From positions 991,001 to 1,055,000 of the forward strand of contig NZ_AP024619.1 in the NCBI RefSeq assembly GCF_019668485.1: 64,000 nt of DNA, given 5' to 3'. The notes under the pieces were generated by a model, which did not search any database, had not been told where the DNA came from, and worked only from the letters and a program-made list of their open reading frames with translations. The position numbers and the translations under genes are program-made. The DNA comes from Gelria sp. Kuro-4 (GTDB lineage: Bacteria > Bacillota > DTU030 > DUMP01). This document shows positions 3,186-26,818 of this stretch, one piece after another (within the stretch, counting starts at the first letter, position 1; each line of letters begins with the position of its first letter).

Positions 3186-5614
3186 TCCCGTTCCTAGAAT
3201 GCATAGCGCGACCACACGATGAACCAAGCAAAGGGCAGAACCTACTTGCAGACCACCTCTTGGCTGTTGCCAGGTCATGGGGGGATCCCACCGGGGATCC
3301 TCCCTCCCGCCTGAAGTTTTTGGCAGGACTGCTTCACGACGCTGGCAAAGCGAGAGCGCGCTGGCAGGAATATATAAATGAGCCAGCAACGAAAAAAAGG
3401 GGCTCGGTGAACCATGCCCCCCTTGGGGCTGCGCTATTCTACTACTGTGCGACAACTCTCCTCAAGTTCCTACACCTGCCACCTGGCGAGCTAAGAGAAT
3501 TGCACTTTTTAATTACTGCACTTTGCTATGACATCTATGACCACCACAGAGAACTAAGTGACTACAACCTGGCCCCCCCGTGGGCCAACACCCTCTCTAA
3601 AGAAGACCTCGAAGAGTGCGACCTTGGCGGAATATGGACATTTGTTGAAATGTTCTTTCCGGAGCTTGGCGCCGGAGGTGCCCTGCATCCTTGTGCATCC
3701 AATTCAGATGCTCTCGCCGATGAGGTATTCTCATGGTTGAGAGGGGCGGAGAAGACCTGGGAAGAAAGGGTGGGCAGGGGAGAAGCAAGGCTTCGACATC
3801 AGATCAATTCCTCACAGGACAGGTATCACCTGGCCGCACAGCGATGCCTGCGGGAACGCACTTGCGGGCTGATAGTCGCAGACAGGTATGATGCTGCGAA
3901 GATGAACAGTTCTGGGCTGACGTGTGATGATGCCGTCCACGGTCTCCACAGACTCCTGAGATTCTGTGAAGCCAAGGGGGCAGCAGCTCTTGTATCCAGT
4001 AAAGGAACGGCCAACCTTCTGGAACAGAGGCGACACCTGCAGGACGTATGCTGCGAAGCGTATAACAGGACTCCGGGCGAAGGCTTTTATACCCTGGTTT
4101 TGCCCACTGGGCTGGGCAAAACCTTAACCTCGCTACGAATAGCTTTGGCGGCGTGTGCAAGCGGAAGGTGTCGTAGGATCTTATATGTCGCACCTTATTT
4201 ATCCATCCTATCCCAGGCCACTCAGAATATCAGAAATGCAACAGGGCTTGAAGTGCTCCAGCACCATCACCTATCCATGCTTGCTCAGGAGGAACTGGAA
4301 ACCTTTGATTCCCTCCTCTTGGAGTCCTGGCAAGCTCCAATCGTGACGACTACATTCAACCAGCTTTTCCGGGCACTATTCCCAGTAAGGGCTCAACACA
4401 CCTTGAGACTTAACGGCCTATGTCGGGCCTTCTTAATAATCGACGAACCTCAGGTTATCGACGGGGCGGTATGGAATCTATTCTTGCATATGCTTCAGGC
4501 CGCGACTGAGGTTTATGGGTGCCAGATACTCCTTTCGACCGCTACATTACCGCCATTGGAATCTGGAATTAGCCGCAACATCATCCCACTCGCGCCGGAC
4601 GTGGAATCGCCGAGCAGATATGAGATTTGCAGCGTTCCTGACCCGCTTGATGAGGAAGGTGTGACGCATGCAGCTATCGAAGAACTCGAACGGTCCGGCA
4701 GTGTAGCGGTAATCATGAACACCGTAGCGGATGCTGCGTCTATCTACTCCAGAGTGAAGGAAAGCCTTCCCGCAGACGTTGCCTGCTACAACCTTACCGG
4801 TTGTATGACGCCGTTGCATAAGGCCCACCGTATTCAAGAGATCGCCTCCCGGCTAGAGTCCGGTGACAAGGTAATGGTGATCTCTACACAGGTTCTGGAA
4901 TGTGGTGTAGACCTGAGTTTTCGTTCCATGTTGAGAGCAACGTCGACGATTCCCTCTATTGTTCAGTCTGCCGGAAGGGTAAACAGGCATGCGGAAGGGG
5001 GTCTGGCTCGCGTAATGGTTTTTAGATTCCTGCGCGGTGGCGAACTAGATACACGGAGGTATGTGTATGGAACGGGGGCCGCAGCACAGGAAACAGACGA
5101 GAGCCTTTCCCGCCACCCTTCATGGGAGGAACCTCAGACACTGGAAGTGGTACAAGAGTTTTACCACAATGTCATGACACGCAACACGAACACTGCCGCG
5201 CTTGAGGCACTAGTCGAGGCGGCCTGCGGGAAATGGAGTGCGCTGGCTAGCCAGGACCCGTTTGGTCCTGACTACCCTCACATTGATACGTTTGTACCAT
5301 ATGGTGAGCAGTTTCTGTCGCCGCGGATGTGGGATCTCCTTCTTAGTTTTGCACCCGGCGGATGTGAGGAGCTCTATGAGAAGTATCTGGACAAACGGTA
5401 CTGGGCAAAGCTCAGTTTTGCGGAACGGAAAAGGTTCATAGGTCTCCTCCAACATTTCGTCGTCTCGCTAGATCCAAGAGTGGCGGGACATATTGTGGTT
5501 CCAGCTCCGGAAATCGGCATATGCCGGATAGTGGATGTGAAGATTTATAGCCCTGAGACTGGACTCGCCCACAAAGTCGGACATGGATACGATGTGTCAG
5601 ATAGTATCTTGTAA
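3173..5614 (+). CDS. cas3: Cas3, HD nuclease-helicase of the type I-B system
   Basis: This 813-residue enzyme is recruited by Cascade and unwinds and degrades target DNA. The N-terminal HD nuclease has H28, the LLHDAGK motif (H55, D56) and a DHHRE stretch further on. The SF2 helicase part has Walker A (LPTGLGKT, near residue 315), a DEPQ version of the DEAD box (near 424), STATLPP (motif III), STQVLECGVDLSF and QSAGRVNRH (motifs V and VI). I chose TTG 3173: GGGAGAGGTG lies just ahead, the frame upstream is not Cas3-like, and the 13-bp overlap with cas5 is typical of a coupled operon. A decayed partial copy of this gene lies near 25.5 kb. Confidence 0.92.
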   Translation: MPVVVPFLECIARPHDEPSKGQNLLADHLLAVARSWGDPTGDPPSRLKFLAGLLHDAGKARARWQEYINEPATKKRGSVNHAPLGAALFYYCATTLLKFLHLPPGELRELHFLITALCYDIYDHHRELSDYNLAPPWANTLSKEDLEECDLGGIWTFVEMFFPELGAGGALHPCASNSDALADEVFSWLRGAEKTWEERVGRGEARLRHQINSSQDRYHLAAQRCLRERTCGLIVADRYDAAKMNSSGLTCDDAVHGLHRLLRFCEAKGAAALVSSKGTANLLEQRRHLQDVCCEAYNRTPGEGFYTLVLPTGLGKTLTSLRIALAACASGRCRRILYVAPYLSILSQATQNIRNATGLEVLQHHHLSMLAQEELETFDSLLLESWQAPIVTTTFNQLFRALFPVRAQHTLRLNGLCRAFLIIDEPQVIDGAVWNLFLHMLQAATEVYGCQILLSTATLPPLESGISRNIIPLAPDVESPSRYEICSVPDPLDEEGVTHAAIEELERSGSVAVIMNTVADAASIYSRVKESLPADVACYNLTGCMTPLHKAHRIQEIASRLESGDKVMVISTQVLECGVDLSFRSMLRATSTIPSIVQSAGRVNRHAEGGLARVMVFRFLRGGELDTRRYVYGTGAAAQETDESLSRHPSWEEPQTLEVVQEFYHNVMTRNTNTAALEALVEAACGKWSALASQDPFGPDYPHIDTFVPYGEQFLSPRMWDLLLSFAPGGCEELYEKYLDKRYWAKLSFAERKRFIGLLQHFVVSLDPRVAGHIVVPAPEIGICRIVDVKIYSPETGLAHKVGHGYDVSDSIL

Positions 5615-5671
5615 GTACAGGCGTTCTGTGAGCAGGGCTTTCTTGTACGGAGGATTTTTCGCAAACTGTCT

Positions 5672-5866: not shown

Positions 5867-6376
5867 GTGGTGACCGACCACGATCTGCCGGTAAACGGTA
5901 CCCTGATCTGGTACTACACAGTGTGTCACCGCCAGGTTTGGCTGATGGCGCGTCACCTCACCCCCGATGAACAGGACGACAATGTTGTCCTGGGACGCTT
6001 TATACATGAAAGCACCTATCAACGCGACAAGCATGAGATCCTCATCGGCAACATCAAGATTGACCTGGTACGCGGGGCTAAAGGCAGCGCTCTCGTCGGT
6101 GAAATCAAGAAATCATCCCGGTCAGAGGCAAGTGCTCGGTTGCAGCTCAAGTACTACCTCTATGTCCTTAAACAGTACGGAGTGGACATCAAGGGGATGC
6201 TGTTCTTCCCGGAGGAGAAACGCAACGAAGAGATCGTACTGGATGAAGAAGGCATCAGAGAAGTCGAGAACGCCATAGCCGGGGTGAAGAGAATTGTTTC
6301 CATGCCTGCTCCAGATCCACCGGTGAAAACGCGGCGGTGTAACCATTGTGCGTATGCGGAATTCTGCTGGGCGTAG
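5867..6376 (+). CDS. cas4: Cas4 exonuclease of the type I-B adaptation module
   Basis: Cas4 trims prespacers and selects the PAM side before integration by Cas1-Cas2. The 169-residue product has the four iron-sulphur cysteines in the expected places: one at YTVCHRQVWL near the N-terminus and three in CNHCAYAEFCWA at the very C-terminus. The RecB-like nuclease core shows GEIKKSSR (the E-x-K element) and a QLKYYLYVL helix. The GTG start directly follows the stop of the small gene upstream. cas1 starts 18 bp downstream. A short piece of a second copy survives at 25981-26033. Confidence 0.92.
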   Translation: MVTDHDLPVNGTLIWYYTVCHRQVWLMARHLTPDEQDDNVVLGRFIHESTYQRDKHEILIGNIKIDLVRGAKGSALVGEIKKSSRSEASARLQLKYYLYVLKQYGVDIKGMLFFPEEKRNEEIVLDEEGIREVENAIAGVKRIVSMPAPDPPVKTRRCNHCAYAEFCWA

Positions 6377-6394
6377 CAGCCGGGGGTAGAAGGC

Positions 6395-7387
6395 ATGAAG
6401 AAGTCTATTTATATCTTTAAGGACGGCCAATTGAAGCGGGAATCCAACACCCTTTGCCTCATAACGGAGGAAGGGAAACGCTTTCTCCCTATTGAAGATA
6501 TCAGTGAGGTACACATCCTAGGCGAAATGGACTTAAACAAACGGCTTTTGGAATTCCTCGCTGAGAAAGAGGTTATCCTGCACTTCTATAACCACTATGG
6601 TTACTACACTGGGACTTACTACCCCCGGCAACACCTCAATTCCGGTTTCATGATCGTCAAGCAGGTGGAGCACTATACTGACCCCGTGCGGCGGTTAGAA
6701 CTGGCCCGCTCTTTCGTGACCGGAGCTTATAAGAACATCAGACAGGTTCTCGTGTACTACGAACGACGGGAGAAGCAGGTGGGTGCCACCATCGCGCACA
6801 TAGATGATTTGGGAAGCGCCTTGGAGTCGACAAGTACCATTGAACAGCTTATGGCCGTTGAGGGTAATATTCGGGACGCTTATTACGGCAGTTTCGACAC
6901 CATCATCGGGGACCCGGATTTCCCTTTTGTGGAACGGAGCAAACGCCCGCCCGGCAACGAGCTCAATGCCTTAATCAGTTTCGGTAATTCCCTCATGTAC
7001 ACCACTACACTGAGCGAGATATATCGTACTCATCTTGATCCGAGAATCGGGTTCTTGCACGCGTCCAATTTCCGCCGTTTTTCCCTCCAGCTCGATGTCG
7101 CTGAGATCTTTAAACCAATCATAGTAGATCGAGTCATCTTCACCTTACTAGGAAAGCACATGCTGAAGAAAACCGACTTTGAGAAGCATCTTAACGGTAT
7201 GGCGTTGACCCAAAAGGGGCGGACCACGTTCATCAAAGAGTTCGAGCAGAAGATGCTGACCACCCTCAAACACCGTGACTTGGGGCGTGAAGTAACTTAC
7301 CGCCGCCTGGTGCGGATGGAGTTGTATAAGTTGGAGAAGCACCTGATGGGCGAGCGCAAGTATGAGCCCTTTGTGGCTAGGTGGTAA
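6395..7387 (+). CDS. cas1: Cas1 integrase of the type I-B system
   Basis: The 330-residue Cas1 forms the spacer integration complex with Cas2. The beta-sandwich N-terminus (MKKSIYIFKDGQLKRESNTL) is followed by the helical catalytic domain. This has the glutamate of AVEGNIRDAYYGSF and the IGFLHASNFRRFSLQLDVAEIFKP stretch, which supplies the catalytic histidine and acidic residue. The ATG is preceded by GGGGGTAGAAGG. The 3' end overlaps cas2 by 7 bp. The sequence belongs to the I-B-type branch and differs clearly from the second Cas1 at 19.2-20.3 kb. A decayed N-terminal piece of a second copy lies at 26037-26167. Confidence 0.94.
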   Translation: MKKSIYIFKDGQLKRESNTLCLITEEGKRFLPIEDISEVHILGEMDLNKRLLEFLAEKEVILHFYNHYGYYTGTYYPRQHLNSGFMIVKQVEHYTDPVRRLELARSFVTGAYKNIRQVLVYYERREKQVGATIAHIDDLGSALESTSTIEQLMAVEGNIRDAYYGSFDTIIGDPDFPFVERSKRPPGNELNALISFGNSLMYTTTLSEIYRTHLDPRIGFLHASNFRRFSLQLDVAEIFKPIIVDRVIFTLLGKHMLKKTDFEKHLNGMALTQKGRTTFIKEFEQKMLTTLKHRDLGREVTYRRLVRMELYKLEKHLMGERKYEPFVARW

Positions 7388-7653
7388 ACGTGTTTGTCAT
7401 CGAGGTGTATGACGTTAACCAGAAGCGCGTTGCCAAGGTTCTTAAAATCAGCCGTAAGTACCTGTACTGGGTCCAGAACTCCGTCTTAGAAGGGGAGATC
7501 ACGGAAGCCTATTTTAGAATGCTGAAGGCCGAGCTGGCGCGGACGATTAATAATGAAGAGGATTCAATAATCTTCTATACCTTTCGCACCACGAAGTATT
7601 CTGAGCGGGAGTCCATGGGGATCGTCAAAGGTGGGGAAGAAAAAATCTACTGA
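7381..7653 (+). CDS. cas2: Cas2 of the type I-B system
   Basis: The 90-residue ferredoxin-fold protein bridges two Cas1 dimers. The first strand FVIEVYDVNQKRVAKVLKI has the expected shape with the conserved aspartate, followed by YLYWVQNSVLEGEITEAYFR, the usual QNSVFEG-type segment, and DSIIFYTFR near the end. The annotated GTG overlaps cas1 by 7 bp. A second GTG three codons later (7390) is equally possible. cas6 starts 6 bp after the stop. Confidence 0.93.
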   Translation: MVNVFVIEVYDVNQKRVAKVLKISRKYLYWVQNSVLEGEITEAYFRMLKAELARTINNEEDSIIFYTFRTTKYSERESMGIVKGGEEKIY

Positions 7654-7659
7654 GGAGCG

Positions 7660-8409
7660 GTGTTTGTGCGGGTCCAAATAGAGTTCGTGCCGGCGGATGG
7701 CCGTGAGCACGTAGGGGTACCCCTGCATTACAACAAGGCGGTGCAGGGCCTTATCTACGCACTGATTCGGCCGACACTGCCTCACTTGCACGATGAAGGT
7801 TACACCAGCAGCGGCCGCGCAATGAGGTTGTTCGTGTTTTCGCGCCTGCTGGGAAAGGTGATTGAGGTTAAGAATGGCTGCCTGGTCTTCCGCGCCCCTG
7901 TCGCCGTCAAGGTCGCCAGTCCCCATGACAGTTTTATCGAAGCGCTGGCTGAAGGGCTTCTGCGTACGCCTACCATCGACCTTGCAGGTGTGAAGCTCGT
8001 ATTCAGCGGCCTATCTGTACAAAAGGCCGCCGGTTTCCCAAGCAACTGTGCACTGTTCACAGCCATCTCGCCCGTGACCGTCTACTCAACTCTTTTTACT
8101 TCCGAAGGTAAGAAGAAAACGTATTACTACCACCCTTCAGAACCTGAGTTCGCCCAGCAGATAAAAGTAAACCTGGGGAGAAAGGCGGCCCTCCTCGGCC
8201 TCGGTCCCAAGATTACCGAAAGCATCGCCCTCAAGTCCGTCCGGGTACGAAGCAGTGATCAAAAGGTGCTTTACTTCAAAGATACCGTGGTCAAAGGCTG
8301 GCTGGGACAATATGTATTTGAAGGTGACCCCGCTATGCTGCAGGTGGCACTCGATTGCGGTATCGGCGCCAAGAACAGCCAGGGCTTTGGGATGCTGGAG
8401 CTGATTTAG
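7660..8409 (+). CDS. cas6: Cas6 crRNA-processing endonuclease
   Basis: The 249-residue RAMP nuclease cuts the 30-bp-repeat precursor transcript and leaves the 8-nt 5' handle. The C-terminal glycine-rich loop (GIGAKNSQGFGMLELI) is the Cas6 hallmark and ends the protein as usual. The N-terminal RAMP strand begins FVRVQIEFVPADG, and a histidine at LHYNKAV is a candidate catalytic residue. GTG start, with GAGGAGCG just upstream. It is the last gene of the operon; the stop codon touches the leader of array 1. The type I-C system next door has no cas6, as expected. A 3' fragment of a second copy lies at 26169-26281. Confidence 0.9.
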   Translation: MFVRVQIEFVPADGREHVGVPLHYNKAVQGLIYALIRPTLPHLHDEGYTSSGRAMRLFVFSRLLGKVIEVKNGCLVFRAPVAVKVASPHDSFIEALAEGLLRTPTIDLAGVKLVFSGLSVQKAAGFPSNCALFTAISPVTVYSTLFTSEGKKKTYYYHPSEPEFAQQIKVNLGRKAALLGLGPKITESIALKSVRVRSSDQKVLYFKDTVVKGWLGQYVFEGDPAMLQVALDCGIGAKNSQGFGMLELI

Positions 8410-8556
8410 CCCTTGTCGTCGATCCTCAGTAGTGTCAAGAACCGGGGGGATCGACACCAGCACAAACACCGGAGTTACGGCCTTTTCCCAAGCAGACTGA
8501 CTCAAAAGAGCCGAGAAGGCGTAAGGAAAAGGCCAGTATTTTCAGCCCCGCGACGG
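8410..8556 (+). promoter_or_regulatory. leader of CRISPR array 1
   Basis: These 147 bp separate the cas6 stop from the first repeat. The leader side is inferred from three facts: it adjoins the adaptation and processing genes, repeats next to it are perfect, and repeats at the far end are degraded. It contains the direct words GGCCTTTTCC and AAGGAAAAGGCC, which are inverted copies of each other around the AGACTGACTCAAAAGAGCC segment. A copy of the same length with about nine substitutions is found at 26282-26428, again between a cas6 end and an array, which supports a functional leader. No clear promoter was assigned. Confidence 0.75.
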
Positions 8557-11500
8557 GTTCTGAGCCTACCTACGAGGAATGGAAACTCGTCCCGGGCGGG
8601 GGCGCTTTCGCTCCGGGCACGCGTTCTGAGCCTACCTACGAGGAATGGAAACCCCCTACGCACTACTACCCGGCCCTTGCGCTCCCCTAGTTCTGAGCCT
8701 ACCTACGAGGAATGGAAACAGCTCAAAGAGACTTATGCCAAAGAGGCTGCAGCTTGTTCTGAGCCTACCTACGAGGAATGGAAACTCGGCCCGCCCAGCG
8801 GCCAGTTTCTGCGCATACAGCGTTCTGAGCCTACCTACGAGGAATGGAAACTCCATTCGCCCCCCAAATAGGGGATAGTGCCGTAGGTTCTGAGCCTACC
8901 TACGAGGAATGGAAACTGGCATGACATTTTCGCCCGATCCATCTATTTGCCCGTTCTGAGCCTACCTACGAGGAATGGAAACAACAAAAAGGTCAAGGAA
9001 ATCAATGCGTTCTTTCGCTCGTTCTGAGCCTACCTACGAGGAATGGAAACCCGCTACCTGCACCTCCAACTTCTCTAGCCGCGCCTGGTTCTGAGCCTAC
9101 CTACGAGGAATGGAAACTGAAAAAGGTTCGTAGCATCGTGTCCACCACCTGGCCGTTCTGAGCCTACCTACGAGGAATGGAAACGCGAAAGCAGCGGTGT
9201 TGGTGACGGCCGTCACCCCGTTCTGAGCCTACCTACGAGGAATGGAAACATGTGCAGTACCATCGGAAAGGGCCATGCTGGAAGGTTCTGAGCCTACCTA
9301 CGAGGAATGGAAACCGGATAACGTCTAGGGCGTTTTCCCCCAGTGCATCCACGTTCTGAGCCTACCTACGAGGAATGGAAACTCTGCAATCATCATCGCG
9401 AAGTTGGCAACGTCCGCTGCGTTCTGAGCCTACCTACGAGGAATGGAAACCGGATGCGGCCAGCATGACTGAGGCCACGAATCTGGTTCTGAGCCTACCT
9501 ACGAGGAATGGAAACTCCATCCCAGCCTCATATAAGGGGTAGATAAAGGAGTGTTCTGAGCCTACCTACGAGGAATGGAAACCTTACAGGCAACAGGAAC
9601 GTTTGGCGAGGGAGGCTAGTTCTGAGCCTACCTACGAGGAATGGAAACCATACCTCCCAATTGTCGTAGCTCCCATAACAACCGTTCTGAGCCTACCTAC
9701 GAGGAATGGAAACACGCATCAAGAAGCATTGTCATTTCTCCTTTCGCCTCGTTCTGAGCCTACCTACGAGGAATGGAAACCCGGCCCGCGGGCCTGGTTC
9801 GGTTTCTGGAACCAGTAGTTCTGAGCCTACCTACGAGGAATGGAAACTGGTGTCGATAATTTGCTTTAGCTGAGCATCGGTGAGTTCTGAGCCTACCTAC
9901 GAGGAATGGAAGCATGCTCCTCGCCGCCGCGCCCTACGTACTCGGCGCGGGTTCTGAGCCTACCTACGAGGAATGGAAACTAACTCCCATTTTCTTTGCC
10001 TCTTTAATGCTCCTCGCGTTCTGAGCCTACCTACGAGGAATGGAAACCTTTTTCGTTGTGATGGCTGTGGTTTGGTACCCTATGTTCTGAGCCTACCTAC
10101 GGGGAATGGAAACTAGGTCTGAAAGTCCTCCTCGATTGTAGTTTCCCTGTTCTGAGCCTACCTACGAGGAATGGAAACCGGGAGCGCCCGCGCTTAGGCA
10201 AGTTGCCCCAGCGGGTTCTGAGCCTACCTACGAGGAATGGAAACCCCGGCATCTGTTACGCTCTCAACGCCCATCGTGTTCGTTCTGAGCCTACCTACGA
10301 GGAATGGAAATCCTGACACCACACACAAAACTTAGTGGCTTCTCATCGTTCTGAGCCTACCTACGAGGAATGGAAACTCGATGAGGCTCTCCAGCCGCAG
10401 GACCAGCCCTGCGACGTTCTGAGCCTACCTACGAGGAATGGAAATCCATGGGGACGGATATATCATCGTCCAGGACTGGGAGTTCTGAGCCTACCTACGA
10501 GGAATGGAAATTGGTAAGGACGAGTACGACTGGCACGAGCAAGCGAGGTTCTGAGCCTACCTACGAGGAATGGAAATTGGGCATGGCCCCGAATGCTTCG
10601 CGCATACTGAGGGTTCTGAGCCTACCTACGAGGAATGGAAACGCGGCGGGAACAGGCGCGGAGGGCGCGGCGGGCGCGGGTTCTGAGCCTACCTACGAGG
10701 AATGGAAACCGGGGGGTGGAAATCGCCCGCCACGCCCCCACCCGCAGTTCTGAGCCTACCTACGAGGAATGGAAACTCACCCCTCTCACCCCTGGCCATC
10801 GAAAGCCGACCGTTCTGAGCCTACCTACGAGGAATGGAAACGTGTTTCTTTTGCTAGGAAGTCCGGCGAATCAGTTAGTTCTGAGCCTGCCTACGAGGAA
10901 TGGAAACGCGAAAGCTGGGAGCGGGTTGGGGACGCGGACCCGGAGTTCTGAGCCTACCTACGAGGAATGGAAACATTTTTCGACCATTTTCTTTTTTGCG
11001 CTGTAATTGGTTCTGAGCCTACCTACGAGGAATGGAAACGCGCATATGTTCAGCCGGAAGCGCTGGGGGCGTGAGTTCTGAGCCTACCTACGAGGAATGG
11101 AAACTTCGTAATGCGAATGTTCCTGATAACCGCAAAGGCAGTTCTGAGCCTACCTACGAGGAATGGAAACGCAGCAACCGTGTTTACCATGATTATGATT
11201 TACATGTTCTGAGCCTACCTACGAGGAATGGAAACTACGGTGCAGAAAATGACAAGATTCGACGTCGTGTCGTTCTGAGCCTACCTACAAGGAATGGAAA
11301 CCCACTCACACCAGTCCATGGCACAGTGTCAGCTCCAGGTTCTGAGCCTACCTACGAGGACTGGAAACCAGGGGCTGAGGTTCTGGAGCGCTGGTCGGGA
11401 AAAGGTTCTGAGCCTACCTACGAGGACTGGAAACGGTCTTCTGTAGCTGGTTTTGGTGGTCGTGTTGTGGTTCTGAGCCTACCTACGAGGACTGGAAACT

Positions 11501-12865
11501 CCGCTGGCGCGCCTCTCGCGGTGTGGCCGCCTCTCCGTTCTGAGCCTACCTACGAGGACTGGAAACGCGTTTCAGTCTCGAAAATCCTGACACCAGGAAT
11601 GGTTCTGAGCCTACCTACGAGGACTGGAAACCACACCAACTGGGGGCGTTCATCCTTGAATGTCAACGTTCTGAGCCTACCTACGAAGACTGGAAACTTG
11701 GCTCGCAGGTCTCCGACTACTACGGCGCGGATGTTCTGAGCCTACCTACGAGGACTGGAAACTGCGTTCGTCAAGGCGCAGATTCTGCGGGATGCAGGTT
11801 CTGAGCCTACCTACGAGGACTGGAAACACTTACAACCGCAATCCCAAGAGCAACCGACCGCGCGTTCTGAGCCTACCTACGAGGACTGGAAACCAGCCAA
11901 AATAACAGCCTCACGCAGTTCGCTAGGTGGTTCTGAGCCTACCTACGAGGACTGGAACCAGTAGAACTCGTCAGGGGTAATCCCCATGCGCTGGAAGTTC
12001 TGAGCCTACCTACGAGGAATGGAAACCTGAGATGGGTAGCTACCGGTTTTTCAAACAATGGGTGGTTCTGAGCCTACCTACGAGGAATGGAAACGTAGAA
12101 GAGGCCATCCCGGTCAATCCTGACCGTCCGTTCTGAGCCTACCTACGAGGAATGGAAACCTATGGCATTTACCTCGGCCCCTCTCCAGCTGCTGTGTTCT
12201 GAGCCTACCTACGAGGAATGGAAACCCCTGGCAAGCTCCAAGACCGAGCTTTTTGCCGTGGCGTTCTGAGCCTACCTACGAGGAATGGAAACATGTGTGG
12301 TCTCACTTGCTCCCATACCTCGTCCGGAGTTCTGAGCCTACCTACGAGGAATGGAAACCTTCGCTGCTCTACAGTGTCTGCCGGCATGAAGCCCGTTCTG
12401 AGCCTACCTACGAGGAATGGAAACCATCGCTGTACCTACCATAACCCACCTGCGGCCCAAGTCTTCAGCCTACCTACGGAGGAATGGAAACACGGCCTGG
12501 CCCTCACCTGGGATGCGTTGGAGGTGGTCTTCAGCCTACCTACGAGGAATGGAAACCTGGGTTAAGCCCCTGGACCACCATGTCCAGGAGGGCGTCTTCA
12601 GCCTACCTACGAGGAATCCGAAACGAAGTAATGATGGTGGGGAGCTGCTCGGCGTACCTGTCTTCAGCCTACCTACGAGGAATGGAAACCGGATAAACGA
12701 GCTTCCATAGCTACGGTAGCAATGTGTTCTGAGCCTACCTACGAGGAATGGAAACCCTCACTGTATCTGCTATAACCCACCTGCGGCCCAACGTTCTGAG
12801 CCTACCCAAGATTCCTGGCAACCGTAATACTTTTGGTTCTGGGCCTACCTACGAGGGATGGAAAC
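8557..12865 (+). CRISPR. CRISPR array 1 (type I-B), 66 repeats of 30 bp
   Basis: By hand count there are 66 repeat units starting at 8557, with spacers of about 34-39 bp. The consensus starts GTTCTGAGCCTACCTACGAG and ends GAATGGAAAC, so the 8-nt crRNA handle would be ATGGAAAC. Repeats 43-52 (11339-11959) share GAGGACTGG instead of GAGGAATGG. Repeats 27, 29, 30 and 31 end in T. Repeats 60-63 (12461-12689) begin GTCTTCAGCC. The last units (12793 and 12836) are degenerate. Units at the leader side are perfect, so newest spacers are at the 8.6-kb end. The apparent reading frames with repeated SEPTYEEWK or VLSLPTRNGN are the repeat translated and are not genes. Confidence 0.99.
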
Positions 12866-13131
12866 GCGGGTCCTGCCGGGCCGCAATTTCACCGGCCTCG
12901 TTCTCCAGACTCAAAAGTTTACCCCAAAAGTTTTTCACCCCGTCCGCAGATGACGGGGTGAGTTTGTTATATTGAAGAAAAAGAGAAAGGAGTCCAGCTA
13001 AATAACCTAAGCCCAAAGCGACTTTGGCTGAAAGATTGACCTAGTCAGAAAAGACTTCCTGATGAAGAAGGATTTACCTCAAATATGTCGAAGTACTAGT
13101 ATAACGAAGTAAGTTCAAAGGAGGCAGACTT
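12866..13131. promoter_or_regulatory. spacer region between array 1 and the type I-C operon, with hairpin
   Basis: This stretch holds no gene. It has a perfect 9-bp inverted repeat with a 7-nt loop (CACCCCGTC at 12936-12944 and GACGGGGTG at 12952-12960), followed by AGTTTGTTATATTG. It may terminate array 1 transcription. About 50 bp starting at the hairpin recur near 25485-25530, ahead of the fossil cas3. The promoter of the I-C operon should lie in 12965-13115, but I could not assign boxes with confidence. The cas3 ribosome site AAGGAGG is at 13118-13124. Confidence 0.55.
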
Positions 13132-24794: not shown

Positions 24795-24949
24795 GTTATA
24801 CTAGTTAACTATTGCAGCGGTTATTGCGGGTAGCGTGCCACTCCGCCTTTCTTTTTTGCTTGGAGAGTTTGCGGCTGGATACTAATCGAGTCTAACCATG
24901 ATGGTTCAGTTGCTCGACCTCTGGGATGAACAGCTAAGAGTTGGAAGTG

Positions 24950-25254
24950 ATGTCTACCGCCAGCAGTGCCGAGGTGGCAGCGTGTACGGGTCAAGGGGCG
25001 GGCTTGCCCGCTTGTGCCGACGGCGAGCACATCTGTCTCAGCACGGTGCCGATCTTTGCCGCTCTCAGCCGGGCCGAACTGCAGCAGGTGAACGACCTGC
25101 TGCTGACGAAGAAGGAGTTCAAAAAGGGAGAGCTCCTATTTAAGCGCAGGGAGCTGGAGAACCGGCTCTGCATTGTGCGCACGGCCGTGTGAAGCTCTAC
25201 ACGCTTTCGGCGGAGGGGTGCCAACAGACGGTGCGGATCTTAGAGCACGGAGAT
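24950..25254 (+). pseudogene. Crp/Fnr-family regulator, N-terminal remnant with frameshift
   Basis: The frame from 24950 encodes a cyclic-nucleotide-binding-domain start: ICLSTVPIFAALSRAELQQV, then KEFKKGELLFKRRELENRLCIVRTA, and stops at 25192. The continuation is in another frame from 25189: KLYTLSAEGCQQTVRILEHGD. Together they give the first 90 or so residues of a Crp/Fnr regulator with one frameshift. The rest of the sensor domain and the HTH are missing; the sequence runs straight into a P-type ATPase tail. Non-functional as it stands. Confidence 0.72.
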
Positions 25255-25258
25255 ATGC

Positions 25259-25477
25259 CGCCAGACCCTGCGCAACATCAAAAAAAGTGTTGCCTTCGCT
25301 GTACTGGTGGTGCTGCTCCTGGTGGGCGGGGTCATCGGACAGGCGGTAGTACTGGGTTTCGGCATGTTGGTCCACGAGGCCAGCGTGCTCCTCGTGATCC
25401 TCAAACGCTATGCGGCTGCTGAACTACCGGGAAGGTTTGAAGTAGATAGACGCAGCCTGATCAAAAATATCGCGTAA
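25259..25477 (+). pseudogene. C-terminal remnant of a heavy-metal P1B-type ATPase
   Basis: The frame reads RQTLRNIKKSVAFAVLVVLL, then a hydrophobic stretch ending GMLVHEASVLLVILKRYAA. That is the last two membrane helices of CadA/ZntA-type metal ATPases, whose HE(A/G)S(V/T) element is conserved. About 70 codons survive, with no start. It abuts the Crp/Fnr remnant, so one deletion probably removed the regulator end and most of the ATPase. Crp/Fnr-like regulators often sit beside such pumps. Confidence 0.65.
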
Positions 25478-25479
25478 AG

Positions 25480-25538
25480 TCAACACCGTCTGTAGATGGC
25501 GGGGTGAGTTTGTTATAGTGAAGCAAGAGAAAGCGGCA
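25480..25538 (+). repeat. copy of the element found downstream of CRISPR array 1
   Basis: The sequence CACCGTCTGTAGATGGCGGG followed by GTGAGTTTGTTATAGTGAAG resembles 12936-12990, where it forms a perfect hairpin followed by GAGTTTGTTATATTGAAG. In this copy the stem has mismatches. It lies directly ahead of the fossil cas3, so it may be part of an ancestral cas promoter or a terminator moved with the duplicated locus. Confidence 0.6.
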
Positions 25539-25542
25539 CAGT

Positions 25543-25958
25543 CTCCAATTGTGACGACTACGTTCAACCAGCTTTTCCGGGCACTGTTTCCGGTGAGGGC
25601 TCAACACACCTTGAGACTGAACAGCCTGTCTGATGCCTTTATAATCATCGCCGAACCTTATCGGTGGGACGGTATGAAACCTCTTCTTGCGAATGCTCCA
25701 GGCCGCAACGGAGCTTAATGGCTGCCGGATACTCTTTTCGACTGCCCCCTGGCGCCAGAAGTGGAATCGCCGAGAAGGTATGAAATCTCTAGCGTTCCAG
25801 ACCCGTTCGACGAGAACTCGAGGCCGCCTGCGGGAGATGGAACGCGCCAGCTGGCCAAGATCCGTTTGGGTCCGATTACCCTCACGTTGATACGTTCGTA
25901 CCGTTCGGAGAGGATCTGCTGGCGCCACGGATACGGAACCTCCTCCTCTATTTTGCGG
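25543..25958 (+). pseudogene. fossil of a second type I-B cas3 (two joined fragments)
   Basis: The segment starting CCAATTGTGACGACTACGTT matches the intact I-B cas3 around 4335-4660 (the TTTFNQLFRALFPVRAQHTL region), with small deletions and frameshifts; the DEPQ box reads AEPY. From about 25867 the text jumps to the match of 5262-5350 (PDYPHIDTFVPYG region). The first 1.1 kb and much of the helicase are gone. It is decayed and cannot make a Cas3. Confidence 0.88.
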
Positions 25959-25980
25959 GGCGTTACGTGAACTGGGTTTT

Positions 25981-26167
25981 ATCGGCAACATCAAGATTGA
26001 CCTGGTGCGCGGTGCCAAAGGCAGTGTTCCCGTAAAGCGTGAAGCCAACACGCTCTGCCTCGTAACCGAGGAAGGGAAACGCTTCCTACCCGTGGAAGAA
26101 TCAGTGAGATCCACGTCCGGAAAGCTTGACTTGAACAAACGGTTCCTGGAACTCTTCACGGAAAAAA
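25981..26167 (+). pseudogene. fossil fragments of a second type I-B cas4 and cas1
   Basis: Positions 25981-26033 match cas4 at 6043-6095 (IGNIKIDLVRGAKGS). Positions 26037-26167 match the cas1 N-terminal region at about 6434-6570 (ANTLCLVTEEGKRFLPVEE then LDLNKRFLELF). The two are fused by a deletion that removed the end of cas4 and the start of cas1. Both pieces keep the order of the intact operon. Confidence 0.88.
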
Positions 26168-26168
26168 G

Positions 26169-26281
26169 GGCCGGCTGGGACAATATGTATTAAAAGGTGA
26201 CCCCGCTATGCTGCAGGTGGCACTCGATTGCGGTATCGGCGCTAGGAACAGCCAGGGCTTTGGATGCTGGAGCCGATTTAG
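26169..26281 (+). pseudogene. fossil 3' end of a second type I-B cas6
   Basis: This 113-bp piece matches the last part of cas6 (about 8296-8409): GWLGQYV, DPAMLQVALDCGIGARNSQG, with a one-base loss near GFG that shifts the final codons. cas2 and most of cas6 are missing. It is immediately followed by the copied leader. Confidence 0.88.
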
Positions 26282-26428
26282 CCCTTGTCGTCGATCCTCA
26301 GTAGTGTCAAGAACCGTGGAGATCGACACCAGCACAAACCACAGAGTCACGGCCTTTTCCCAAGCAGACTGACTCAAAAGAGCCAAGAAGGCGTAAGGAA
26401 AAGGCCAGCATTTTCAGCCCCGTGACGG
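26282..26428 (+). promoter_or_regulatory. conserved copy of the type I-B CRISPR leader
   Basis: The 147 bp have exactly the length of the leader at 8410-8556 and differ by about nine substitutions and no net indel. The neighbouring cas fragments, in contrast, are full of deletions. This points to retention by use, for instance as an integration site for the intact Cas1-Cas2, or to recent gene conversion. Confidence 0.82.
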
Positions 26429-26721
26429 GTTCTAAGCCTACCTACGAGGGATGGAAACAAATCACATCATACCCAAACTTCCGAGACTGGGAAGTTCTAA
26501 GCCTACCTACGAGGGATGGAAACACTCGACCTCGGCCTTCCTCGTAGCGGCCAGCTCGCTGTTCTAAGCCTACCTACGAGGGATGGAAACCCGTAAACAT
26601 GGTACGGTTCCCACGCCCTGGATTCGTTCTAAGCCTACCTACGAGGGATGGAAACAATGCTCGCTGGTGGCTTCAGGTGTTGGCAGCAACCGTTCTAAGC
26701 CTACCTACGAGGGATGGAAAC
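26429..26721 (+). CRISPR. CRISPR mini-array 3, five repeats of 30 bp
   Basis: Five identical repeats start at 26429, 26494, 26561, 26626 and 26692, giving four spacers of 35-38 bp. The repeat differs from array 1 at two positions: GTTCTAAGCC for GTTCTGAGCC, and GAGGGATGG for GAGGAATGG. The 8-nt handle ATGGAAAC is unchanged, so the intact Cas6 and Cascade could use its RNAs. All five are identical, without the decay seen at the ends of arrays 1 and 2. Confidence 0.97.
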
Positions 26722-26818
26722 ACCCAAAAGCCAACGCCGCACCATCCACCGCACGGAGGATTCTTTTCCCATTTCGGCACCATGGTTTTTCAGGGGACTC
26801 TAGTTAAGGAGGTGCACA

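Follow-up and report, generated by a model that had tools for sequence, protein, structure and literature searches.

It is common for one cas locus to serve several CRISPR arrays whose repeats are identical or almost so, their origins being duplication, transfer and splitting; for acquisition, a match in the repeat outweighs distance (survey PMC12814883). In Clostridioides difficile one I-B machinery serves many arrays, with interference from nearly all of them and acquisition at some, and the leaders carry inverted-repeat motifs (PMC8406132). Orphan arrays that outlast their cas genes are also known, an example being the E. coli I-F arrays, which carry anti-cas spacers (review: PMC8616872).

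The locus described here, in Gelria sp. Kuro-4, consists of cas gene debris followed by a leader and a short array (leader 2 and array 2). It resembles the secondary arrays of PMC12814883 in being of the same subtype as the resident operon, with a near-identical repeat, a leader copy and no cas genes of its own; it is unlike them in sitting in the ruin of an older second operon, with a cas6 3' tail that reveals the origin of the module. Multiple arrays on one I-B machinery and inverted-repeat leader motifs are shared with C. difficile (PMC8406132), where the evidence is experimental, whereas the present case is inferred from sequence and involves one I-B operon and three arrays in the genome. 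Array 2 adjoins lost cas genes, as do the E. coli I-F orphan arrays (PMC8616872); however, the genome here also holds an entire cas operon of that array's subtype, and none of the array 2 spacers matches cas genes of the loci compared. By its sequence features array 2 is best read as a secondary array served in trans by the resident cas operon, which is a known kind, and its history is unusually readable for such an array.

The window is the whole 64,000-nucleotide stretch of DNA that was analysed; C1 denotes the single contig of the genome. An intact type I-B operon, cas8b to cas6, matches family models and ends at 8409, its cas8b-bearing open frame comprising 752 codons; according to the same models the genome holds full-length I-B cas1, cas2, cas4 and cas6 together with effector genes. 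Array 1 (8557-12865) follows, then a second cas operon, consistent with type I-C in its genes and its repeat, with an array of its own, and then the fossil.

5867-8409, plus strand: cas4, cas1, cas2 and cas6, all intact by family models; proposed suppliers in trans
8410-8556, plus strand: leader 1, the reference leader in sequence alignment
25483-25533, plus strand: X', a degenerate version of an element that precedes both the I-B and the I-C operon; a 53-bp alignment with 12937-12989 shows 85% identity
25543-25956, plus strand: cas3 debris in three pieces; 80-85% identity, with frameshifts, deletions and mismatches mainly at third codon positions
25543-25745, plus strand: cas3 piece 1, matching intact 4335-4542
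25745-25814, plus strand: cas3 piece 2, matching intact 4585-4654
25818-25956, plus strand: cas3 piece 3, matching intact 5214-5352
25981-26033, plus strand: cas4 fragment, matching intact 6044-6096 at 88.7% identity
26035-26166, plus strand: cas1 fragment, matching intact 6434-6568 at 81.5% identity in pairwise alignment
26166-26281, plus strand: cas6 3' end with a 1-bp deletion, matching intact 8293-8409 at 94.0% identity with changes even over codon positions; the younger tail begins here
26282-26428, plus strand: leader 2, 147 bp, 93.9% identity to 8410-8556, ungapped
26429-26721, plus strand: array 2, five identical repeats GTTCTAAGCCTACCTACGAGGGATGGAAAC and four spacers, by repeat comparison
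26748-26809, no strand assigned: 62-bp relic akin to DNA in front of a transposase gene; counterparts at C1:1659217 and C1:2365799 are 87-94% identical

The initial annotation had recognized pieces of cas3, cas4, cas1 and cas6 in the order of the intact operon, and collinear BLAST matches bear this out for the X'-cas3-cas4-cas1-cas6 debris at 25483-26281, with E-values of 1e-134 to 1e-12 that exclude chance. The fossil begins with the remnant of the upstream element (25483-25533); as this remnant is directly upstream of the cas debris, even the front end of the operon is represented. The fossil genes are dead. The cas1-cas6 deletion junction (26166) is flanked by AAA on each side in the intact operon. 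Assuming that the fossil originally followed the layout of the intact operon, about 10 kb has shrunk to about 1 kb. The possibility of an assembly error was dismissed, since the genome forms a single contig and the differences between fossil and intact operon run along the whole length.

The debris and the tail differ in age, as their alignments to the intact operon demonstrate. The cas3, cas4 and cas1 pieces are about 17% diverged (101/591 mismatches; 24, 12 and 65 by codon position), while the last 263 bp from 26166, comprising the cas6 3' end and the leader, are 6% diverged (16/263; the cas6 part 2, 2 and 3 by codon position); the step is significant (p = 8e-6) and located at the cas1-cas6 junction. 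The third-position excess in cas3, cas4 and cas1 implies that most of their divergence arose under protein-level selection, and judged by these patterns the old operon is a separately evolving, working operon that diverged mainly while functional, and no recent duplicate. A three-way alignment adds a congener (G001), whose operon is also that of JASKKP010000025.1. Fossil cas1 is equidistant, sharing 78.8% identity with the intact copy and 79.5% with the congener, whereas the tail clearly lies closer to the intact copy, and the patterns of private changes differ between cas1 piece and tail (p = 0.001); the tail's common ancestor with the intact operon is thus younger than that of the debris. 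Against this contrast, the 53-bp cas4 piece by itself sides with the intact copy; the difference in history is therefore carried by cas1 and the codon-position pattern.

These results bear on the initial reading, in which one duplicated operon decayed since the intact copy covers in trans, and purifying selection kept the leader and array. The leader is indeed 147 bp long with nine substitutions and no gaps, and a homologous leader sits directly at the first repeat of array 2, whose repeats are intact; the leader is also closer to its intact counterpart than the cas3, cas4 and cas1 pieces are to theirs (9/147 vs 101/591, p = 0.0004). The similarity of the leader is, however, the same as that of the dead cas6 piece beside it (9/147 vs 7/116 changes, p = 1.0), which leaves selection on the leader unsupported. 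Leaders also appear free to diverge between congeners: over the 77 bp that the congener leader covers, it is 71.4% identical to the intact leader, the cas genes being 75-81% identical (22/77 vs 566/2510 differences, p = 0.22), an outcome that the initial annotation had itself named as telling against it. As the congener leader is as diverged as the cas genes, leaders of this lineage are not specially held back; leader 2 looks intact because it is young. A single duplicate should show one divergence time for all of its parts, apart from a constrained leader, but the dead cas6 end matches the leader in its youth, codon-position patterns and histories disagree between the parts, the debris diverged as functional genes prior to decay, and a third copy exists that has the cas6 deletion in common with the fossil. 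Decay of one duplicate under selection for its leader is accordingly considered unlikely. An apparently 'selected' leader can reflect age, for which adjoining dead coding DNA and a congener provide the yardstick.

The promoter scan returned no plus-strand promoter site in leader 2, the scan being uninformative either way, and Rfam holds no RNA family matching the leader, its sole matches being the I-C repeats. The first part of leader 1 (8410-8460) features an inverted repeat of the GTCGTCGA...TCGACGAC type, which recurs in leaders of a second congener and in those of a different family from this phylum that has related repeats.

The third copy lies at C1:2794781-2795420 on the minus strand, about 1.8 Mb away, and comprises a cas6 3' end (from about intact position 8211), a leader and five repeats; no other I-B operon pieces were detected beside it (C1:2.795 Mb), which indicates that the module of cas6 end, leader and array was copied as a unit at least once in this genome. 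It has the 1-bp cas6 deletion of the fossil; this deletion falls within a run of GGG and may be the product of two independent events, and while it unites fossil and third copy, other sites unite the intact and third copies. Around C1:2795048-2795600 the third copy adjoins what looks, by eye, like the 3' end of the adjacent epimerase-like (SDR) gene in broken form, a further gene-end copy at that site.

Array 2 has 30-nt repeats starting at 26429, 26494, 26561, 26626 and 26692, separated by spacers of 35-37 nt. As first noted, its five repeats are identical and share an 8-nt handle with array 1 (last 8 nt ATGGAAAC in both); the array 2 repeat matches the resident I-B repeat at 28 of 30 positions. 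Two private changes had been ascribed to it, of which G6A stands, as it is present in all five repeats and in no other repeat of the loci examined, while A22G also occurs in the last repeat of array 1 (12836) and in two repeats of the third array. The uniqueness of G6A to array 2 implies that its five repeats multiplied from a founder of their own. In the three-copy alignment the 263-bp tail has 12 changes private to the fossil; at that rate about 7 changes would be expected in the 150 bp of array 2 repeats, where there are none (P about 0.001), whereas the third array has five different repeats though its tail has few private changes. In CRISPR adaptation each new repeat is templated on the leader-proximal repeat; given the uniformity of array 2, the pattern is most simply read as spacer gain once the cas6 copy next to it had broken. 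Array 2 would thus have been refilled with Cas1-Cas2-Cas4 acting in trans; repeat homogenisation, or an array that arrived ready-made, could mimic such uniform repeats. The proposal that the intact copy supplies functions in trans thus survives in part: a full I-B gene set exists that could serve array 2 and the uniform repeats point to uptake after the cas6 break, but decay of a whole copy with selection on its leader is not part of it. Uniform variant repeats may provide a testable sign of continued spacer acquisition beside dead cas genes.

It has also to be weighed whether the whole stretch, array 2 included, is inert debris whose repeats look fresh since tail and array were copied recently. 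The gene debris on the left and the transposase-linked relic on the right fit this view, and there are four spacers only, for which protospacers were not found: their matches in the own genome are at chance level, and none occur in phage records or in viral contigs (24-nt pattern with three free positions). The array 2 repeat itself is absent from the viral contigs searched, no plasmid record matched leader 2 with array 2, and folding gives the same weak hairpin for both repeat versions, not better than most shuffles. Recent copying of tail and array together is opposed by the 12 own changes of the tail, as the repeats have none and carry their own variant in five of five; array 2 is therefore younger than the decay of the tail, and inert debris is held to be improbable. 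Array 2 might have been retained to destroy I-B operons that enter the cell, an anti-cas role like that of the E. coli I-F orphan arrays; this has a precedent (PMC8616872) and would fit an array retained next to lost cas genes, but it is hardly credible with a complete I-B operon in the same genome and without any spacer matching a cas gene in the window, in the congener or at the other loci compared.

The locus is quite likely a chimera of two ages, its tail younger than the cas3, cas4 and cas1 debris, in which array 2 most likely works in trans. An old, separately diverged I-B operon (X', cas3, cas4, cas1) collapsed by deletions, as the debris shows; from the cas1-cas6 junction at 26166 rightward the cas6 3' end, the leader and probably the array are younger. 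This tail was probably placed either by gene conversion, with a cas6-leader-array module akin to the intact operon as donor, or by copying of such a module; another copy of the module lies at C1:2.795 Mb. Cas1-Cas2-Cas4 of the intact operon are predicted to add spacers at leader 2, copying the first repeat of array 2, and the intact Cas6 to cut the array 2 transcript at the shared 8-nt handle; that array 2 still works in trans, through both spacer uptake and transcript cutting by these proteins, is judged probable, if with some reserve. A more tentative possibility is that the cas6 3' end, leader and array form a compact module copied as a unit, both onto the remains of a dead operon and to a site far away, with one copy that kept acquiring spacers in trans. 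If true, this would offer a traceable route for the spread of cas-adjacent arrays with the cas6 tail as its footprint. The cas6 tail on two loose arrays is a simple marker of secondary-array origin.

Just past array 2, the transposase-linked relic (26748-26809) is a possible truncation point of the array; its copy at C1:1659217 adjoins a DDE transposase gene. On the other side, between the I-C array and the fossil (24941-25475), lie two more broken gene pieces, which on inspection by eye look like a Crp/Fnr-type regulator and a cation ATPase C-terminus; neither had a match in Pfam. The element of which X' is a remnant, element X (window 12925-12998; C1:988936-989010), features a palindrome CACCCCGTC-n7-GACGGGGTG followed by a promoter-like TTTGTTATATTG. 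It is present upstream of a HIRAN gene and the I-B operon (C1:988936), upstream of the I-C operon and, decayed, upstream of the fossil; there are also weaker copies (C1:672172, C1:1173648). The cas operons could have it as a common operator.

Nucleotide homology to the congener I-B locus starts at 5653, just past cas3, so that cas4-cas1-cas2-cas6-leader are common to both and the effector genes are not; the adaptation end therefore seems to have been joined by recombination to a different effector module. Within the far, degenerate stretch of array 1, the spacers at 12425-12460 and 12756-12792 are near-duplicates that both end in TAACCCACCTGCGGCCCAA, reflecting either internal duplication or related targets.
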